This document shows, in pieces, positions 55,221-64,000 of a DNA stretch of 64,000 bases. The notes beneath the pieces are model-generated. The model did not search any database and had not been told where the DNA came from. It saw only the letters and a list, made by a program, of their open reading frames with translations. Origin of the DNA: Chryseobacterium gleum (GTDB lineage: Bacteria > Bacteroidota > Bacteroidia > Flavobacteriales > Weeksellaceae); contig NZ_LR134289.1 in assembly GCF_900636535.1 (NCBI RefSeq), positions 4,295,001 through 4,359,000 on the forward strand, in the 5' to 3' direction. Position 1 is the first letter of the stretch. Every line of letters begins with the position of its first letter. The translations under genes and the position numbers were made by a program.

Positions 55221-55294
55221 GGTCCTATAGCTCAGTTGGTTAGAGCACCTGACTCATAATCAGGTGGTCCCTGGTTCGAGCCCAGGTGGGACCA
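55221..55294 (+). tRNA. tRNA with CAT anticodon (Met elongator or lysidine-modified Ile)
   Basis: A complete cloverleaf folds by eye. It has acceptor GGTCCTA / TGGGACC (one G-T pair), D-arm GCTC / GAGC, anticodon stem CCTGA / TCAGG with loop CTCATAA (anticodon CAT), and T-arm CCTGG / CCAGG with TTCGAGC. The discriminator is A, and the CCA end is not encoded. CAT serves Met elongator tRNA and also tRNA-Ile2 (lysidine), and sequence alone does not let me choose. A terminator follows. Confidence 0.92.
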
Positions 55295-55303
55295 CAGAAA
55301 ATC

Positions 55304-55335
55304 AACCGCTTACAGAAATGTGAGCGGTTTTTTAT
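55304..55335 (+). terminator. Terminator after the tRNA
   Basis: The stem AACCGCTTAC / GTGAGCGGTT (one G-T pair) has a 6-nt loop and is followed by T6. It separates the tRNA from the convergent RiPP operon and may serve both. Confidence 0.85.
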
Positions 55336-55353: not shown

Positions 55354-56205
55354 TTATTTTTTCAGAGAATGACCTCTATTGGTTTTATAAAAGCGGAATA
55401 AGTGATCATAAATTACCATTTCAAATAGTCTTTGATGGGAAGTAAACAACCGGTTAATATGCATATGAAAAATGCTTTTCAAGAAATCTTTTAGTTTTAT
55501 TTCTAATAAATCATCTTTTTCCAATTTTGAAAATTCTTCAGGCTTTAATGCAATTTCAGTGATATTACTTTTTATTAAATTTCTGATTTCTTCATATTCC
55601 TCAGAGGTAATAAATTCAAAGTAATGAGGATAAAACTCATTATACTTTTTCTTTAACTGATTATTTAAGTTCTTATCTGCATTGAATTCTGATTTGAAAG
55701 CATTTTCAGAACGCTTTGCGAACTCTATTTTCTCTTCAGGAGATAGGTTGAATGCTGATAAAATTTGATTTATGTAAAATAAAGAAGTAATGATCTTTTC
55801 TTCATCACTGTATTCCAGAAAGTTTAAAATCAATTGGCTGCTTTTAAAAAAGAGGTCTTCAGCGTATTCTATCGTGTTTTCACCATAACGCTCAAGTTCT
55901 CTTGAGTAGGTATCCATAATGATAGAAGCGACTTCTCCCGATTCCAGATAGTCCTTAAATAAGGAATTGATCATTCCCAGGATCATACTACAGGCAGTTA
56001 TATTTTTAAGGTTTAATCTTATTCTCAGGTGGGGTTTAGGATCGTTATATCGTATAAAAAACCATTGATCAATAAGGTTTTGAATTTGTAATTGTTCAAC
56101 TAATGGTTCTATAACTTCCTGTAAAATAGTATCTGAAGTTTTGATCCCGGTGTAAACTTTGAAATAAAGCCATTCACTGCCCGGATGAAATTTTCTGGTT
56201 ATCAT
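55354..56205 (-). CDS. Lantibiotic dehydratase elimination-domain protein (SpaB C-terminal / thiopeptide type)
   Basis: The 283-residue protein matches the stand-alone C-terminal domain of LanB dehydratases, which removes glutamate from glutamylated Ser/Thr to leave dehydroalanine or dehydrobutyrine. The conserved opening 'GSEWLYFKVYTG' and 'QWFFIRYNDPKPHLRIRL' (Arg52, His59, Arg61, Arg63) are clear. 'IMDTYSRELERYG' and the C-terminal 'HMHINRLFTSHQRLFEMVIYDHLFRFY' follow. It is 5 nt downstream of the glutamylation-domain gene, so the dehydratase is split into two proteins as in many thiopeptide-type and Bacteroidota systems. It is the last gene of the operon. Confidence 0.9.
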   Translation of the reverse strand: MITRKFHPGSEWLYFKVYTGIKTSDTILQEVIEPLVEQLQIQNLIDQWFFIRYNDPKPHLRIRLNLKNITACSMILGMINSLFKDYLESGEVASIIMDTYSRELERYGENTIEYAEDLFFKSSQLILNFLEYSDEEKIITSLFYINQILSAFNLSPEEKIEFAKRSENAFKSEFNADKNLNNQLKKKYNEFYPHYFEFITSEEYEEIRNLIKSNITEIALKPEEFSKLEKDDLLEIKLKDFLKSIFHMHINRLFTSHQRLFEMVIYDHLFRFYKTNRGHSLKK

Positions 56206-56210
56206 CTTAT

Positions 56211-58406
56211 TTATAGATCTTTATAAAGAGAGAAAACGAATTGATGAATATAATCTGACTGATCATTATACAGGAACTCCTCAATAAAAATTAGTTTCTC
56301 ATTTTTTACGGATGATAAAAACATTTGAATTAAATCGTAATTTTTCAGGTTGACCGCCAGTGTATTATCTCCTTTTACCCACTGTATCCATTGTGGAATT
56401 TGTTTTAATTCTCTCCACTCTTCAATATTTTGAAACAGAAGATCTCTTTTACCAGATTGAAGAATGGAATCAAAATAATGAATTTGTTCTGGATCAATTT
56501 TCCACTGTGCTTTAGACAGAATTATATTTTGATATTCAATTCTTGGAAGGAAGTCATAAATTTGGGATAATCCCCCCCAGCTAAATGATAAATAAGGTTT
56601 TACATTCTGATTATTATAATCGCATAAAAAATGGTAGACAGGTAAAGAGTTGTTTAAATAATTATGGGCATTCGTAAGATGAGGAATAATTTCTTTATTG
56701 TGCTTCTTTGACCTTAGAAATAACTGGCTATTCTTTATGGACAGGTACAAGTCTTCCACAAAAATTTGATTGTCTTTTTCTAATGCAGAGCTCGCCAGAT
56801 AAGGAATTTCATATTCTCTTATAGAAGGTCTTCTGATCACATTTCCAATTCTGGATTCGGGTAAGTGTACAATTTCTGCTAAAATTTTGTCCGGATTAAG
56901 TTCCTGTTCTTTTTCAGCAATGGCTTTCACCAAATCTTTTATAGATGATTTTTCTGAACAGAATCTGCCCAATAATTTTCCGGCATTTCCACCGGCAGAT
57001 TTTAAAAATAATTTTTCCTGCTGATTTTCTGAAATGATTTCGGCCATAACAGACAATGTATCTGGCAGTTGATTCCACTGTTCCTCAAAACCATTAAAAT
57101 CATCATCAGTTAAATGTATTACATGATCTTTATTCCAATAAGCTTTTTGTAATTTCCGATTGAGAATAATGTGTACCGGATTAAGATTTACCCGAATTTC
57201 TTTTTTCTGATTAGAATAGGGCAGGATTAAATCTTCAATATAAGGATGAACCCCTTTGGCCGGAATATCTTGTAAATAGCCAATTCCTATTTCCGGATCT
57301 AAAGCATAAGATAATGGAACTTCTTCGTTTTCAAATCTTTCATAAAAGGCTTTTTTGAATTTTTCTAAAGCAGATTCTTTGTAAGGAACAGCAATTTTAT
57401 TCAGAAAAGAGATTCCTTTCTTCAGTTCTTTTTTCCATTGATAGGATAAATTTGTTTCATCTTCAAAATAAAGATCTGTCTGAAAAAGATATTTCTTTTC
57501 ATATTGTACATTCAGCTTTTTGATGAGTTCCTCAATTTCAGAATATGCTTCTGCCGTATTTCCAAAATGTAAATCAAGTTCACTGATCTTGTTTTTAATA
57601 GCCACTAAAATATCTTTTTCCTGATATCTGCCAATTTTGTTTAGCATGTAAATTAATCGTTCCAGAAAATCTCCTCCCGAAACTGTAGGATTAATTTCAC
57701 TTATCAAAACCTGATTTCCGATAAGCTCATCAATAAATTCCCGGGCTTCTTCAAAAGATATATCTTCATGAACGAGAAAGGTGGCAAGCTGGTCAATTGT
57801 TTTACCTGTTTCTGAAAATTGTAGTATAAGTTCCAACTCTTTGGAAAATGGAGCGGAAGAAATGATGTAATCTCTTTTTCCTCCTGTATTTTCATATTCT
57901 ACAAAGCGAATTTTATTTCCAACCTTATGAATACTGTTGTTAGGAAAAAAAGAGATACTGTTTTTAATGGCCGGAATTAAAAGAATCTGCTCTGATAGTG
58001 CCACTAAAAAATGCATATCCAGCTTTGTATCTCTTACTTTTGTAGGCTCTGAGAATATCGGAAATAGAGTCTCTTTTTCAAATTTTCCTGTACTTACTCC
58101 TGAAAATAAACCAAATGGGGTACAGCGGGTACTTGAGCGGTTATAATATTTAAATAATGAAATCTTTGTTTTTTCATTTGGTAAATTAGACGTTGTATGT
58201 TCACGATCCGTCAATTTCTCTATCTCATCATATAAGGAAAGAGAAGCTAAATAAATGGCTTCTCTAAAAATTGTATGGTTGCAATATTTTTCTAAAGATC
58301 CATTGGTGATGTTTTCACCAGAGAAATGATCCTGAAATTCTTTGTAGGAAAAAATTGGAGATCTGACAACAAATGTGTCAAAAAACTGAAATGGAAAACG
58401 TGGCAT
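56211..58406 (-). CDS. Lantibiotic dehydratase glutamylation-domain protein (LanB N-terminal type)
   Basis: The 731-residue protein matches the N-terminal LanB domain, which transfers glutamate from glutamyl-tRNA to Ser/Thr of a precursor peptide. Its start 'RFPFQFFDTFVVRSPIFSY' and 'NRSSTRCTPFGLFSGVSTG' (Arg94; T96-P97-F98-G99) are the usual LanB opening. 'YLQDIPAKGVHPYIEDLILPY', 'GNAGKLLGRFC' and 'PYLSFSWGGLSQIYDFLPRIEYQNIILSKAQW' lie further along. The elimination domain is absent and supplied by the next gene. It shares 1 nt with the hydrolase stop upstream (TAATG). No LanC-type cyclase is encoded in the cluster, which matches a Cys-free precursor. Confidence 0.92.
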   Translation of the reverse strand: MPRFPFQFFDTFVVRSPIFSYKEFQDHFSGENITNGSLEKYCNHTIFREAIYLASLSLYDEIEKLTDREHTTSNLPNEKTKISLFKYYNRSSTRCTPFGLFSGVSTGKFEKETLFPIFSEPTKVRDTKLDMHFLVALSEQILLIPAIKNSISFFPNNSIHKVGNKIRFVEYENTGGKRDYIISSAPFSKELELILQFSETGKTIDQLATFLVHEDISFEEAREFIDELIGNQVLISEINPTVSGGDFLERLIYMLNKIGRYQEKDILVAIKNKISELDLHFGNTAEAYSEIEELIKKLNVQYEKKYLFQTDLYFEDETNLSYQWKKELKKGISFLNKIAVPYKESALEKFKKAFYERFENEEVPLSYALDPEIGIGYLQDIPAKGVHPYIEDLILPYSNQKKEIRVNLNPVHIILNRKLQKAYWNKDHVIHLTDDDFNGFEEQWNQLPDTLSVMAEIISENQQEKLFLKSAGGNAGKLLGRFCSEKSSIKDLVKAIAEKEQELNPDKILAEIVHLPESRIGNVIRRPSIREYEIPYLASSALEKDNQIFVEDLYLSIKNSQLFLRSKKHNKEIIPHLTNAHNYLNNSLPVYHFLCDYNNQNVKPYLSFSWGGLSQIYDFLPRIEYQNIILSKAQWKIDPEQIHYFDSILQSGKRDLLFQNIEEWRELKQIPQWIQWVKGDNTLAVNLKNYDLIQMFLSSVKNEKLIFIEEFLYNDQSDYIHQFVFSLYKDL

Positions 58407-60631
58407 TAATTAAGTGAAATAGGAATTTCTATAAAACTGTTATTGTAAAATTTTATTTCCACAGGAACTGCAGCATCCTTGATGGTTTCTTCGCTCACAT
58501 CTTTTCCGGTTCCATAGTTGATCTGCATAAGCGGATTTTTTATAACTCCCAGGACCAAGACAAGTGTACTGCCTTTTTCTATTTTTTTGCTTACAAATTC
58601 ATTATTGACAGCAGCTATATCCGTTTGTTTATTTTCACGCAGCAATTTTCTTTTCTCTGAGCTTTTAGCATAGCTTGCTCTTCCATAATAGGTGGATAAC
58701 AGAAAATATTTACCTTCTTTGGTCTTTTCATAAAGTTTCATATATACATCAACATCTTTTTTATTAACAGATAATTTCAGATTACCCACAAAATTTCCTG
58801 TAAATTCCACTGGTTTTTCAAATGGCTCTGATGAAAATACAACAGCGTCTGGACTGTAAATTTTACTATCGAGCACGTTATCTTTTTGCTTAAAAAGCTC
58901 ATCTGCATTGGTACGGTCTTTTAAATCTACCGTAAGTGGTGTGAAGTCTTTATCTCTATCTTTTGTTAGAGAAAGCTGATGTTGGTTTGTGATATAGAAT
59001 TTTAATTTATTTTTATCAAAATCATCAATGCTGGAGGTACTTTTCCATTCATTGGTTCCCATTACCTGATAATTAATTTTATCTTTTAAGAAAGTTGGTT
59101 TTAATTTACCCTTCAGAATATAATCAAACCATTCCATTGTTATATTTGTGATATCCATATTGGCCACAGAATCAATTGTATATCCTTTTAGGTTATTTTT
59201 AATATACCCCTGGGATCCTGAATGATCATAAGGTCCGATAATCAAATAATGATTGGCGCTTTTGTTGTATTTATGGTGATTTTTGAAATAGTATAAGGCT
59301 CCCAGCTGATCAGAATCATAATATCCCGTAATAGTTAAAACCGGGATGTTGATATTAGAATATTCCTTTTTGTAAGGTATCATTTTCTGCCAATAGCTGT
59401 CAAATGCCGGATGCTTTAACCAGCGCTGAAATATTATATTTTTTTTACCTGCAATAGAATCCAACTTGTTAAATGCCTCACCACCTTCATACCATTTTTT
59501 AAAAACAGAATTCCAATGATCTTCATCTTTGAAGCCTGCATCAAGCATTTTATTATTGGTAACATAGTTAATCCAACGAAGAGAATAAGAGGCAAAAATG
59601 TTATTATTCATAGGGAAATCTACTACGCCAATTCCTACAGAAGCCTGTGGAATAATAGTTTTTAGAGCTGGATGAAAATTTTTAGCGGCTGCCCATTGGC
59701 TGAAACCCAGATAACTGCCTCCAACCATTCCTACTTTGCCATTGCTCCAGGACTGTTTCGTAATCCAGTCAATGACCTTATTAATATCTTCCTGCTCATG
59801 TTCAAAAGGTTCTATGGCAGCGTTACTCGCATATTTTCCTCTGGGATATATGTAAACAGAATGATAACCATAGCTTGCTTGTACTTTTTGATCATTGGCA
59901 TCTTCTGCATCAGGATAGATGGAATTGACCAGGATGGTAGATTCCGGAGTAGCAATTTTTTTATTTAAAACAACTCTTATACTTATATTATTATTGATTA
60001 ATAAACTGTCTTTTACCTCAAAGTTCCTGGAGTCGAGCTCTTTTAAATAATTTTTAGCGATATCAAATGTAGGTCCTGTTATATATGAGTTATAACTTCT
60101 GCATAGCTGTAAAGCTTTTTTCAGATCTATGCTGTCTTTGTTCTCAAAATCATTTTTAAGAGTAGCCAGAATTTCCTTTTTTGTTTTCTCGGTATCACCA
60201 TTGAAATAACGTGGAAGAATGATCTGTGTTTTTATAGGAAGACTTTCATATTTTTTCAGAAATTCTTCTTTATATTTTTCCTGAAAATTTTTGTATGAAT
60301 TTTTATTTTTTTGAGCATTTATGTAAATTTCATACTGTGTTCCCATAGCGTATGAAATAATAGGATTACTTGTTCTGTAAACACTGCGTACTGAATCAAG
60401 TTGACTTAAAGCAGTATCATAGTTTTGTGCTGCCATACTCACTCTGAAAAGATTATCATACTTTACCGCCTTGTCTTTTTCTTTATAATTCTTTTGTATT
60501 TCAGAATTTAAATAAGAAATTAAAGGCTGCAGTTTTTCAATATTGTATTCATTAAAATGTTTAATACTTATTTTCTGAGAAAAAGAAATATTGAATGTAA
60601 GGAAAAATGATAGGGTTAACAGGTACTTCAT
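58406..60631 (-). CDS. Exported CocE/NonD (S15-type) hydrolase in the RiPP operon
   Basis: The 741-residue protein has a signal peptide (MKYLLTLSFFLTFNISFSQ) and then about 180 helical residues of unknown type. An alpha/beta-hydrolase of the X-Pro dipeptidyl-peptidase/cocaine-esterase group follows: 'GMVGGSYLGFSQWAAA' with nucleophile Ser306, 'TGYYDSDQLG' with Asp439/441 and 'GPYDHSGSQG' with His470. The C-terminal ~200 residues form the jelly-roll domain of the family. Its place directly after the precursor gene suggests it trims, releases or degrades the peptide in the periplasm, or gives self-protection; these are inferences. Confidence 0.88.
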   Translation of the reverse strand: MKYLLTLSFFLTFNISFSQKISIKHFNEYNIEKLQPLISYLNSEIQKNYKEKDKAVKYDNLFRVSMAAQNYDTALSQLDSVRSVYRTSNPIISYAMGTQYEIYINAQKNKNSYKNFQEKYKEEFLKKYESLPIKTQIILPRYFNGDTEKTKKEILATLKNDFENKDSIDLKKALQLCRSYNSYITGPTFDIAKNYLKELDSRNFEVKDSLLINNNISIRVVLNKKIATPESTILVNSIYPDAEDANDQKVQASYGYHSVYIYPRGKYASNAAIEPFEHEQEDINKVIDWITKQSWSNGKVGMVGGSYLGFSQWAAAKNFHPALKTIIPQASVGIGVVDFPMNNNIFASYSLRWINYVTNNKMLDAGFKDEDHWNSVFKKWYEGGEAFNKLDSIAGKKNIIFQRWLKHPAFDSYWQKMIPYKKEYSNINIPVLTITGYYDSDQLGALYYFKNHHKYNKSANHYLIIGPYDHSGSQGYIKNNLKGYTIDSVANMDITNITMEWFDYILKGKLKPTFLKDKINYQVMGTNEWKSTSSIDDFDKNKLKFYITNQHQLSLTKDRDKDFTPLTVDLKDRTNADELFKQKDNVLDSKIYSPDAVVFSSEPFEKPVEFTGNFVGNLKLSVNKKDVDVYMKLYEKTKEGKYFLLSTYYGRASYAKSSEKRKLLRENKQTDIAAVNNEFVSKKIEKGSTLVLVLGVIKNPLMQINYGTGKDVSEETIKDAAVPVEIKFYNNSFIEIPISLN

Positions 60632-60670
60632 AAAAATAAAAAATCAGTAATTTTTCTCAAAATTACTGAT
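60632..60670 (-). terminator. Attenuator-like hairpin between precursor and hydrolase genes
   Basis: Perfect 12-nt arms (60659-60670 and 60643-60654) have a 4-nt loop. On the minus strand they are followed by TTTTTTATTTTT right up to the hydrolase ATG. It would end most transcripts after the precursor and let a fraction read into the enzymes. Confidence 0.75.
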
Positions 60671-60688
60671 AAAATGTTAAAATAGTCA

Positions 60689-60859
60689 TTAATTTTTTAC
60701 TGTCACATCCAGAGTATCTAATGTTTTGTCTAAGACCGTATCATTACCATCATTCAAAAGCATTTGATCACCTCCTCCGGAGCTAATCCCTCCTTTTATT
60801 TTAGACATTTGAACTTTGTTTAGGGATAATCTTTTTTCTGTTTTTTTAATTTTTTTCAC
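60689..60859 (-). CDS. Short GG-leader RiPP precursor peptide, Cys-free core
   Basis: A 56-residue peptide that I start at GTG 60859. The leader (24 residues) has the Bacteroidota class I lanthipeptide look 'KRLSLNKVQMSKIKGG', ending in Gly-Gly. The 32-residue core contains 'ISSGGGDQMLLND' and 'DTVLDKTLDTLDVTV': Ser2, Ser3 and four Thr, six Asp, no Cys. A longer frame from TTG 60901 (70 residues) overlaps the promoter and is rejected. Being first in the operon before a split LanB pair, it is the likely substrate. Without Cys it cannot form lanthionine, so dehydroamino acids or another modification are expected. Confidence 0.85.
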   Translation of the reverse strand: MKKIKKTEKRLSLNKVQMSKIKGGISSGGGDQMLLNDGNDTVLDKTLDTLDVTVKN

Positions 60860-60898
60860 TGCTAAAGTAGTTTTAAGATTTTTAAATAAATTGAAGTA

Positions 60899-60929
60899 CA
60901 AAGGAAATTCTATTCCTGTAAATAAAGAA
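60899..60929 (-). promoter_or_regulatory. Promoter of the RiPP operon (TTC-N20-TTCCTTTG)
   Basis: On the minus strand TTC (60929-60927) is 20 nt from TTCCTTTG (60906-60899). Both elements are off-consensus by one base, as expected for an activated promoter. The transcript would start near 60893, after the TTG codon and about 34 nt before GTG 60859. Confidence 0.6.
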
Positions 60930-60934
60930 TTTAT

Positions 60935-60960
60935 ATATACCGAAATTGATAAATTTCGGT
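60935..60960. promoter_or_regulatory. Palindromic box 1 upstream of the RiPP promoter
   Basis: The palindrome is ACCGAAATT-GATA-AATTTCGGT (60939-60960). The 25 nt at 60935-60959 match box 2 (62862-62886) at 22 positions. Its centre (60949.5) lies 20.5 nt upstream of the first -33 base. Confidence 0.75.
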
Positions 60961-61007: not shown

Positions 61008-62738
61008 TTAATTGAGTGCTTTTATATAATAAGAAGGAAGTGTTCCTGTTATTTTTTTGAAGGCATTCGTGAAAGACTCAGCATTGTTGTAGCCAATATC
61101 ATCAGCAATAGCAGCAATGGTATGCTTTCTTATTTTTTCGTTAGATTTTAATTCTTCAACAATATAGTTGATCCTAAGCTCGTTCAGATATTGGGAAAAG
61201 TTTTTACCCTTTAATTCATTGACTAGTTTTGAGAGATAATCTCTGTTAGTATCAAATTCTTTTGACAGAGAATCTAAAGTAATGTTTTTATTTAGAAAAC
61301 TATTAGTCTTTTCAAACTGTTCTATTTTATCAATGAGTATTTTAAATTTTGGATTAGAAGAAAGGTCACTTTTCGTAGCTTTTTCCTTTCTTTCAATGGT
61401 AATGGAAGGATTATCTGTAATGGGAGTTTCAGTCTTTTGCTCTTTTTCCAGCACAGGGGTACTCAAAGGTTTTTCTGATAATACTTTTGCCTGCTTTTCG
61501 TATTCTTTTATTTTCTTCCTATTTTTCCTGATTACAAATATGAAAGCTAAAGTAATCAGAAGCAAACACGCTATCAGCCAGGCATTCTGATGGTTCAGTC
61601 TTTCAATTACACTTACCTTTTCTTTCATAAGCAAAGGGGTGTCATATTTTTTCAGAATTTCTTTTGAAAGATTTTTTCGGTTCACAGCTATTATACTGTC
61701 ACTATACATCAGGTTGTCAATGTATTTTAGCTGGTTTTTTAAATCGCCTTTCTTTTTATAAAAGTCTATCAGAATTTCATATCCCTCTCTTTTTATAGGT
61801 TCAAAACTGTTAAAGGTAAAAGAAATTGAATCTGCCTTTTTAAAAAATTCTATAGCTTCGTTTTCACTGCGGGTTGCATATTTTATTTTTCCCAGATAGT
61901 AATATAATACTCCCAGATTACTATAATCTTTATTTGTTATCAATCCTTTTTCTACTTCCAGCAGGATTTTATAAGACAGCGAATAATCTTTTACATAAAA
62001 GAGGCTAATCCCTTTTATCATAAGCAGATAGCTGTAATAAGAATAATTATTGTATTTCTTACATTCTGTAAGCCCCAGATCTGCAAATTCAATACCTTTT
62101 TTATAGTCCTTACATTTGGTATAAATATTAGCTAAAGAAAAAATAGAAGCAATATAGTTTTTAGCATCTACATTGTTGTTTTTTATTTTATCTTTTTCAT
62201 ACTTATAGTATTTCAAAAAGAGAGGGAGTGCTTCCTGATATTCTTCTGTAGCTGTTTTTAGGATGGCAATAAGCTTGTTTATATAAAAAAACTGTTCTTT
62301 ATTGTCAGCCCTGTTGTGATTAATAGCTATAGTATATTTATCTAAAGCTTCTTTGTATTTCCCTTCATTGTTGAATAAAATACCTTTTAATATATAAGAT
62401 TTTGCCGGGTAATCGTAGTTATTAACGTTTTTTGAGGCAGAGATGAGTGAGTCTGCAAAGGGATGCCCGTTTTCATTCTTCAGATTTTTTACCCGCGCTA
62501 TATTATAATATCCATCAAACAGGATGTCCCTATTATTTTCTTTCTTTCCTTTTAATAGAATGTAATTGGCTAAAAGCTCAGCTTTATCGTTGTCAACCTG
62601 GAATACTTTATTGTAAGCATCATTAATATACTTATAACTTTTATTCTTTAACGAGTCTGGAATTTTTATTCCCTTTATGCTTTGAGAAAAGAAAAAAACA
62701 GGGAAAACGGTTAAAAAAATTAAATGAAACTTCTTCAT
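61008..62738 (-). CDS. TPR membrane protein with AraC-type DNA-binding domain
   Basis: This 576-residue regulator has a signal peptide (MKKFHLIFLTVFPVFFFSQ) and a periplasmic domain (about 20-385) of TPR-like helices ('YNIARVKNLKNENG', 'SLANIYTKCKDYKKGIEFADLGL', 'YYYLGKIKYATRSENEAIEFFKKADS'). One membrane helix follows ('AWLIACLLLITLAFIFVI', about 393-410), then a cytoplasmic AraC-type HTH at about 475-576 ('LDSLSKEFDTNRDYLSKLVNEL' and 'IADDIGYNNAESFTNAFKKITGTLPSYY'). Such Bacteroidota proteins link an outer signal to gene control. It lies between two copies of a palindromic box, one at the precursor operon and one at the receptor gene, and is the likely binder. Confidence 0.9.
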   Translation of the reverse strand: MKKFHLIFLTVFPVFFFSQSIKGIKIPDSLKNKSYKYINDAYNKVFQVDNDKAELLANYILLKGKKENNRDILFDGYYNIARVKNLKNENGHPFADSLISASKNVNNYDYPAKSYILKGILFNNEGKYKEALDKYTIAINHNRADNKEQFFYINKLIAILKTATEEYQEALPLFLKYYKYEKDKIKNNNVDAKNYIASIFSLANIYTKCKDYKKGIEFADLGLTECKKYNNYSYYSYLLMIKGISLFYVKDYSLSYKILLEVEKGLITNKDYSNLGVLYYYLGKIKYATRSENEAIEFFKKADSISFTFNSFEPIKREGYEILIDFYKKKGDLKNQLKYIDNLMYSDSIIAVNRKNLSKEILKKYDTPLLMKEKVSVIERLNHQNAWLIACLLLITLAFIFVIRKNRKKIKEYEKQAKVLSEKPLSTPVLEKEQKTETPITDNPSITIERKEKATKSDLSSNPKFKILIDKIEQFEKTNSFLNKNITLDSLSKEFDTNRDYLSKLVNELKGKNFSQYLNELRINYIVEELKSNEKIRKHTIAAIADDIGYNNAESFTNAFKKITGTLPSYYIKALN

Positions 62739-62861: not shown

Positions 62862-62886
62862 ATATACCGATATTGATCAATCTCGG
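62862..62886. promoter_or_regulatory. Palindromic box 2 upstream of the receptor promoter
   Basis: CCGATATTGATCAATCTCGG (62867-62886) is a palindrome with one mismatched pair. It matches box 1 at 22 of 25 positions (ATATACCGA-x-ATTGAT-x-AAT-x-TCGG). Its centre (62876.5) lies 20.5 nt upstream of the first base of the TTG at 62897. Confidence 0.75.
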
Positions 62887-62948: not shown

Positions 62949-64000
62949 ATGAGGAAAATAGTAATATGTGTAAGTGTTTTGCTTCCGTTGTTTGGTTTCT
63001 CTCAAGAGAAGAAAGATTCCATTAAAACAGTTATAGAAAAACAAATTGCAGAAATAAAAGTGAATGGTAAAAAACCTTTTTTTGAACAAAAGGATGACCG
63101 TTTTGTTTTTAATGTTGAAAATAGCGATTTGGTTGTAGGAAATCACATATCTGAAGTTCTCTCTCAAACACCATTGTTAAAAGTAGATGATAATAAAATA
63201 ACTCTTCTGGGAACAAACGCCTCTGTTTACATCAATGACAGAAAATCAATTCTTAAAGGCAAAGACTTAATACAATATCTTAATGCTATGCCGGCTTCTA
63301 ATCTGGTAAAGATAGAGCTGATTACCAATCCTTCCTCAAAATATGATCTGGAGGATGCCATGATTATTAATCTGAAGCTGAAGAAGCTGGAAACAGATGG
63401 ACTGAAAGGAAGTTTTACCATTACAGATAAACAAAACAGAAAAAACAGCCAGCAGACGAATATTGCTTTAAATTATCATAAAAACAGATTTTCAAATAAT
63501 ACCATGTTGTTTTTTGAAAATAATAATGACCTGCAAAGAAACAGTATTGATAACTATAGCTCAAAATTCAGCAGAAATCAGATTATAGGAAGTACGCTGG
63601 TTAAAGAAACCAACTTTGGAGGAAATACAGGTTTTGATTATGAGCTTAATGAAAGAAGCAGCATAGGAGGTATTCTGGAATATTATCACAAAACACCGGA
63701 ATCTTCCCTTGAAAACAGGAATATCTATTATGATACTACAGGAGGAATTTTTGAAAACAGAACGGTAAATACACAAAATGATAAGCTGAACCTTTTCGGA
63801 GGAAATATTTATTACAGTTTTAATGATGATAAAAAATCCAAGCGATTGGATATCAACTTTGATTATTATACCCATCACAGAGATAATACGACAGAGTTTT
63901 TTAATTTGACAAACCCATATTCTAATTTAATATATAATGATTATCAGAAGGACAATTATACGGTAAGAGTAGATTACTCCAAAACTTTAGAAAAACTAAA
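62949..64000 (+). CDS. TonB-dependent outer-membrane receptor-like protein (partial)
   Basis: The frame starts at ATG 62949 and is open at the window end (about 350 codons seen). A signal peptide (MRKIVICVSVLLPLFGFSQ) is followed by a plug-like domain: 'DRFVFNVENSDLVVGNHISEVLSQTP', 'KITLLGTNASVYINDRKSILKGKDL', 'MPASNLVKIELITNPSSKYD'. Outer-membrane barrel strands then begin ('GGNTGFDYELNERSSIGGILEYYHK'). No carboxypeptidase-like N-terminal domain is present. It matches the 'outer membrane beta-barrel family' group of TonB-dependent proteins. It is divergent from the regulator, shares a palindromic box with the RiPP promoter and so may import, secrete or resist the peptide. Confidence 0.88.
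   Translation, partial: MRKIVICVSVLLPLFGFSQEKKDSIKTVIEKQIAEIKVNGKKPFFEQKDDRFVFNVENSDLVVGNHISEVLSQTPLLKVDDNKITLLGTNASVYINDRKSILKGKDLIQYLNAMPASNLVKIELITNPSSKYDLEDAMIINLKLKKLETDGLKGSFTITDKQNRKNSQQTNIALNYHKNRFSNNTMLFFENNNDLQRNSIDNYSSKFSRNQIIGSTLVKETNFGGNTGFDYELNERSSIGGILEYYHKTPESSLENRNIYYDTTGGIFENRTVNTQNDKLNLFGGNIYYSFNDDKKSKRLDINFDYYTHHRDNTTEFFNLTNPYSNLIYNDYQKDNYTVRVDYSKTLEKL

Follow-up and report, generated by a model that had tools for sequence, protein, structure and literature searches.

A Chryseobacterium operon pairing split LanB enzymes with a Cys-free precursor core and lacking LanC, possibly encoding a linear dehydrated signal peptide

The class I lanthipeptides of Bacteroidota, of which pinensin is named in the available part of PMC7268733, are reported there to carry a common leader motif and split LanB proteins. 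For Chryseobacterium itself, the accessible portion of PMC9993889 describes ChmABC, in which LanB-dependent dehydration proceeds best with the native GluRS/tRNA-Glu, and which has a LanC and a Cys-containing core. The operon analysed here lies on the - strand of a 64,000-nucleotide stretch of the Chryseobacterium gleum genome (assembly GCF_900636535.1, contig NZ_LR134289.1, positions 4,295,001 to 4,359,000), termed the window; the genome is 5.6 Mb in a single contig. It encodes the precursor of a ribosomally synthesized and post-translationally modified peptide (RiPP), an exported hydrolase and two LanB proteins, LanB-N and LanB-C. With the Bacteroidota lanthipeptides it shares the LxLxKx5L leader motif, separate glutamylation and elimination proteins and a double-glycine (GG) site, and with ChmABC the genus and a presumed LanB-dependent dehydration, but it differs from both in having no LanC, in operon or genome, and a core free of Cys. 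An exported peptidase, of S15 or prolyl oligopeptidase (POP) type, and a regulator combining tetratricopeptide repeats (TPR) with an AraC domain further separate it from the former. We put at roughly 0.5 the probability that this LanC-less, class-I-type RiPP operon makes a linear dehydroamino-acid peptide that serves as a self-sensed signal. The gene set, the lack of a cyclase and the conservation of the enzymes are firm, and a linear dehydrated product is likely, judging from the sequences.

An earlier note on the window had proposed a precursor, an exported S15-type hydrolase, LanB-N and LanB-C in one operon without an exporter gene, and open reading frames (ORFs) and domain searches located all four at the claimed positions (Table 1) with no exporter gene among them. 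The hydrolase and LanB-N genes overlap by one base, and 5 bases separate LanB-N from LanB-C. The central observation of that note, a split LanB pair with conserved catalytic residues facing a Cys-free core, was borne out: as in class I lanthipeptide systems, predicted glutamylation and elimination proteins with conserved residues are present, while the LanC cyclase and the core Cys of such systems are absent from the window. Profiles of 31 LanB-N and 30 LanB-C sequences match solved LanB structures including NisB and MibB (the latter taken by us to be structure 5ehk). The LanB-N equivalents of NisB Y80, R83, R87, T89, D121 and W616 are Y87, R90, R94, T96, D130 and W635, all invariant, and the LanB-C equivalents of R784 and H961 are R61 and H247, likewise invariant. 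The equivalent of R14 is presumably R15, and those of R786 and R826 presumably R63 and R106. According to the available part of PMC4341554, mutation of NisB Y80 or H961 abolishes dehydration, mutation of R83, R87, R14 or W616 impairs it, and mutation of T89, D121 or R784 has small effects. The residue evidence therefore rests mainly on the first of these groups, the equivalents of Y80 and H961. LanB-C, its residues conserved, adjoins LanB-N, unlike in PEARLs, the amino-acid-adding LanB proteins, which have no elimination partner.

The operon belongs to a widespread set, a spread that the earlier note had not seen. A clade defined by LanB-N at least 48% identical to that of the window comprises at least 99 rows in at least 89 of the 173 genus genomes in the homology listing. 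The 81 loci examined are the window, 79 further clade loci (with it, 80 of the at least 99 rows, 19 lying outside the examined set) and L152, whose LanB-N (42% identity) falls outside the clade. In a tree of 102 LanB-N sequences, made by a quick method without bootstrap and with long-branch warnings among outer rows, the set of 80 lies on one side of a branch with a Shimodaira-Hasegawa-like approximate likelihood ratio (SH-aLRT) of 100. The common order in the loci read is a regulator with TPR, transmembrane (TM) helix and AraC domain, a GG precursor, an exported serine peptidase (S15 or POP), LanB-N and LanB-C. Of the 81 loci, 74 have a peptidase gene immediately ahead of LanB-N (S15 in 23, POP in 51), 79 a LanB-C of >240 aa after it and 71 a regulator of >540 aa upstream. 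All 35 loci in the named genome collection are from Chryseobacterium; seven loci of other genera of the same family have the identical gene order, and a family search with LanB-N at E up to 1e-100, a cut-off that admits some LanBs outside the clade too, gave matches in 111 of 320 genomes, which belong to 5 of 33 genera. Since identical gene order recurs across the genus, the grouping of these genes is beyond chance. It is very improbable that the operon is a relic, a lanthipeptide cluster that lost its LanC and exporter and is decaying: the few broken members (the precursor of L158 and LanB rows with stops) would fit, but frames are mostly intact in a clade of this breadth, the catalytic residues are invariant and the palindromes described below are conserved.

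The 56-residue GG-leader precursor with a Cys-free core is present as first described, and a 70-aa TTG-start form is likewise open. Its leader comprises VKKIKKTEKRLSLNKVQMSKIKGG or runs on to the following SSGG, and the core contains NDTVLDKT. A by-eye alignment with L098 and other homologues suggests that the double-Gly site may instead be SSGG, a few residues past KIKGG. The six Ser/Thr and six Asp previously counted in the core hold if the leader ends at KIKGG, and not if SSGG is the site, where cleavage leaves a core with four Thr and no Ser. The NCBIfam lanthipeptide-leader model NF038153 gives the window precursor 10.7 bits, below the cut-off of 22, which none of eight relatives' precursors reached (best 19.2 bits); precursor matches to Ribosomal S4e and DUF7356 (E about 0.01-0.02) were taken as chance. 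A leader profile returned 77 precursors above 20 bits, in 74 of the 81 loci, and none above that score in the other seven; as the profile was seeded with precursors of the same set, the 77 are a collection and not an independent test. At L158 the precursor reads as two pieces, about 2.3 kb upstream of LanB-N. Cores vary behind the conserved leader, and every one of the 77 has Ser or Thr. The earlier note had made its reading depend on the lack of a conserved Cys in homologous precursors; this holds for 45 cores, which are Cys-free, and not for the 32 with one Cys (none has more), six of which, all S15-linked, share DTT..C.

Absence of a cyclase, claimed for the operon, extends to the whole window genome, in which a search for the LanC-like domain (PF05147) gave no match. 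Of the 173 genus genomes 84 have this domain somewhere, as do 52 of the 89 listed genomes of the clade. A profile built from 18 LanCs, applied after BLAST with two LanC sequences had missed the LanC of L201, detected LanC in 17 of 20 control loci and added none in clade loci. By this profile none of the clade operons read has its own LanC, and the examined stretches of 78 of the 80 clade loci contain none, the exceptions being L123 and L130, where a LanC encoded on the opposite strand adjoins a different LanB; the non-clade locus L152 does contain a LanC. In a contrast set of 20 LanB loci outside the clade, picked with LanC adjacency partly visible beforehand and not blind, LanC is found in 17 (all except L194, L196 and L197, the latter on a short contig) and a small leader-like GG ORF with at least two Cys in 15, or 16 counting L205 with its AG site. 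L194 (genome G063) combines this LanC-less, non-clade LanB with a regulator of the R2 type treated below and a short precursor-like ORF that lacks Cys, and genes resembling HlyD and C39 follow downstream. These counts bear on the proposal that the products are small lanthipeptides, in which the single Cys of some members closes one thioether ring, either unaided by LanC or by means of one encoded elsewhere, the Cys-free members being derived. The one-Cys cores, with their shared DTT..C, and the LanC-like domain in many clade genomes speak for it, but we consider it improbable, given the window genome without the domain and clade operons without a LanC of their own. Moreover, one-Cys cores are not enriched in genomes with LanC (15 of the 43 cores from LanC-positive genomes against 17 of the 34 from LanC-negative ones), and a LanC elsewhere in the genome was rejected as their explanation for want of this association.

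The hydrolase of the window has a signal-like N-terminus, predicted helical repeats at about residues 35-203 where no Pfam model scored above cut-off, and matches, by sequence and by model, to cocaine esterase and alpha-amino acid ester hydrolases. S306, D439 and H470 are invariant in an alignment of 27 hydrolases and presumably form the catalytic triad, going by their position in the cocaine-esterase alignment. The enzyme of a POP-type relative (L103) matches prolyl endopeptidases. On the LanB tree the S15/POP type changes 14 times; seven independent switches fall on branches with good support. The core motif T[VI][VLI][DEN], picked after the sequences were seen, occurs in 16 of 24 S15-linked and 0 of 49 POP-linked cores; over the paired switches it goes with S15 in five to six of seven and never against it, at a borderline p of 0.03-0.06. 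Among precursors of other genera, NDTIKDKT, VTIKDKT or NDTVLDKT is present in all three of S15 type, only one of which fits the motif as written, and in none of four of POP type. Because the core motif follows peptidase type, if by a borderline test, the exported hydrolase probably takes part, as the earlier note had allowed. The Thr/Asp spacing that it had stressed was rejected as a defining feature, the conserved part being only T[VI][VLI][DEN] in S15-linked cores. Pro occurs in 11 of 24 S15-linked and 46 of 49 POP-linked cores (paired test weak), and a paired test on the LanB tree gave no clear link between core Cys and peptidase type. A previously overlooked hairpin directly 3' of the precursor (60671-60642) is conserved in all seven close loci aligned, and a hairpin plus T-run follows 11 of 24 S15-linked precursors, none of 49 POP-linked ones and one of four without an assigned type, compared with 1 of 77 shuffles. 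The hairpin of the window was not reported by a consensus scan and is likely an attenuator favouring the precursor mRNA.

The adjacent TPR-AraC regulator, also missed at first, is part of the system. It has a signal-like N-terminus followed by TPR repeats, and a central TM helix is predicted in all 71 regulators. Pheromone receptors are among the TPR proteins that the predicted TPR domain resembles, LGN and others matching as well or better. In close relatives a near-palindrome, CGAAATTTATCAATTTCGG, lies about 90-100 bases upstream of the precursor start. When up to 4 of 19 mismatches are tolerated, 30 of the 77 precursors have it upstream. Where the regulator is of R type, these are all 20 S15-linked precursors (13 of them outside the source subclade) and 4 of 7 linked to POP. 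Of the precursors with an R2-type regulator, none of the 43 beside a divergent one has it, and the only one whose R2-type regulator is on the same strand (L116) does; it also precedes 5 of 6 with no regulator or peptidase type assigned. In 77 plain shuffles the mismatches never fell below 5. A palindrome of their own occupies this position before R2-type precursors: in 29 of 44 its arms match at 8 or more of 9 positions, where two-base block shuffles predict 3.5. Searching the window genome for the 18-base pattern with up to 2 mismatches gives three sites, one ahead of the precursor, one in the regulator/receptor gap and one at 3451112, and the reversed control pattern gives one hit per strand. 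There is, in these alignments, a correspondence between upstream palindrome type and regulator type, and the palindrome is a putative operator. Its reading as a terminator was rejected, as 43 of the 44 R2-type precursors lie beside a divergent regulator, yet most have the palindrome at the same distance, and as changes in the window subclade are not compensated (by eye). The divergent receptor gene is a possible regulon member; an ORF 94-98% identical to it lies upstream of the regulator in five of seven close loci (L096-L102).

The proposed explanation draws on gene order, catalytic residues, LanC absence, predicted topology, the palindrome-regulator match and the switching of peptidase type. 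The split LanB pair would glutamylate core Ser/Thr and eliminate glutamate in the cytoplasm, a C39-type ABC exporter from elsewhere would cut after the GG leader and export the core, and the exported serine peptidase (S15 here, POP in most relatives read) would trim it in the periplasm. The mature peptide would then be bound in the periplasm by the TPR domain of the AraC regulator, a membrane protein that would act on the palindrome upstream of the precursor and on that between its own gene and the divergent receptor gene. The broader proposal of a Gram-negative autoinducer system based on a ring-free, LanB-dehydrated peptide, with exchangeable signal types (precursor, peptidase, TPR-TM-AraC sensor and operator) ahead of a constant dehydratase pair, is tentative and falls somewhat short of even odds.

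Distance correlations in 42 POP-type loci are 0.62 for regulator-peptidase, 0.25 for regulator-LanB-N, 0.70 for LanB-N-LanB-C and 0.57 for precursor-regulator, and the regulator-peptidase value given LanB, 0.595, was reached by 0 of 2000 permutations. Regulator, precursor and peptidase appear to behave as an exchangeable cassette ahead of the LanB pair, clearly in POP-type and not in S15-type loci; in the latter the core-peptidase value given LanB is 0.70. Such co-variation in POP-type loci speaks against a narrow-spectrum bacteriocin, a dehydrated peptide that would kill close relatives while the exported peptidase activates it or protects from it and the TPR-AraC protein responds to stress or competitors. 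That explanation, which we regard as rather unlikely, gains from the variable cores behind a conserved leader, which fit antagonism as well as signalling, from the up to three clade LanB rows in a single genome (G050) and from bacteriocin-like GG-peptide clusters elsewhere in the window genome. It loses by the palindrome (up to 4 mismatches) that also stands upstream of 21 of 29 R-type regulators, and by gene-order listings that showed no further gene recurring at all sites, the flanks not being systematically annotated, so that an immunity gene may still be present. One peptide could both kill and signal. Several points weigh against the self-sensed signal. In the 18 S15-type loci the regulator-LanB correlation is 0.88, so that the parts move together there. 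The leader too tracks regulator and peptidase more than LanB, which points to cassette co-inheritance and is not a sign of core-receptor fit alone. One-Cys precursors exist, and those members may form a single thioether ring. Finally, although no other single reading does better than signalling, its lead over the bacteriocin is small.

Export was earlier assigned to factors in trans, with a LanC or C39 gene just beyond the receptor gene named as counter-evidence. No LanC is present in the genome; a C39 gene does lie at window-equivalent 68789-70975, but it forms part of a separate radical-SAM cluster and was rejected as the operon's own exporter, although export may pass through it. This cluster, directly after the receptor gene (L034 5128-10976, window-equivalent 65127-70975), holds a run of five small ORFs, all with Cys and most also with GG, together with genes for a radical SAM protein, the C39 ABC exporter and a 305-aa protein without Pfam match. 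The window genome has two C39 domains, and the domain occurs in 169 of the 173 genus genomes and in all 89 clade genomes listed. A C39 exporter locus at L035 4602-13331 has VKOR/thioredoxin proteins, a Cys-rich GG peptide and an HlyD-like protein. Relatives of the C39-HlyD-VKOR locus of the window genome lie near some clade operons: 21 of the 81 loci contain its neighbour, presumably DUF3810, and nine contain a C39 transporter, whose identity is 83-94% in five cases and 33-40% in the other four. Two genomes of another genus carry C39-HlyD downstream, on the same strand, and in one of the two the preceding operon is of LanC type. These relatives, together with C39 in all clade genomes listed and an operon devoid of an exporter, make export by a C39 transporter encoded elsewhere plausible.

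The features of the locus are collected in Table 1. The hairpin at 55304-55329, previously taken as the operon terminator after LanB-C, is best read as that of the tRNA-Met gene, because its T-run is reported on the + strand. In L154 the chromosomal site that the operon occupies in the window, next to tRNA-Met, holds a POP-type operon instead, its LanB-N 53% identical.

Table 1. Positions of the operon and neighbouring features in the window.
Feature	Position	Strand	Basis
tRNA-Met gene	55221-55295	+	
Hairpin terminator, between LanB-C and tRNA-Met	55304..55329	+	T-run strand
LanB-C, predicted glutamate elimination protein	55354..56205	-	PF14028 9.6e-64, TIGR03891 1.8e-70
LanB-N, predicted glutamyl-tRNA-dependent glutamylation protein	56211..58406	-	PF04738 1.3e-133
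S15/CocE-type serine hydrolase	58406..60631	-	PF02129 7.7e-37
Hairpin + T-run between precursor and hydrolase	60642..60671	-	conserved in close loci
Precursor peptide, 56 aa, GTG start	60689..60859	-	leader profile + ORF reading
Palindromic putative operator CGAAATTTATCAATTTCG upstream of precursor	60941..60958	.	sequence pattern
Putative sensor-regulator, TPR + one TM (385-403) + C-terminal AraC helix-turn-helix (HTH)	61008..62738	-	domain/topology prediction
Second palindrome copy (2 mismatches), regulator/receptor intergenic	62868..62885	.	sequence pattern
Divergent OMP_b-brl_3/TonB-dependent receptor gene, 708 aa, extends beyond window	62949..64000	+	domain search

A literature search with mostly open-access, partial coverage recognised no account of the LanC-less clade or of the regulator cassette. 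LanC-first mining, of which the lanC-based screen in the available part of PMC3091789 is an example, cannot find such clusters, yet their LanB-N is present in at least 89 of 173 genomes. If true, the signalling reading would give LanB dehydration a role outside antibiotics and make peptide communication in Bacteroidota directly testable, every operon naming the signal that it makes together with the matching protease, receptor and DNA site, and specificity experiments would come ready-made from cassettes exchanged in nature. The predicted TPR fold of the regulator recalls the RRNPP receptors (Rap, NprR), which are cytosolic and soluble; here, in contrast, the TPR domain is predicted to be periplasmic and joined by the TM helix to a C-terminal AraC HTH. 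The split LanB resembles the goadsporin- and thiopeptide-type enzymes, which carry out split-LanB dehydration outside lanthipeptides and, according to the accessible part of PMC10676384, act after YcaO azole formation, the comparison with the window being by split LanB only. As regards the peptidase, the FlaP-type POP of class III lanthipeptides (available part of PMC10885120) is likewise tied to a dehydrated RiPP, as in the POP-type relatives, but the POP of the operons described here is a predicted exported protein whose place is taken by an S15 enzyme in other loci.

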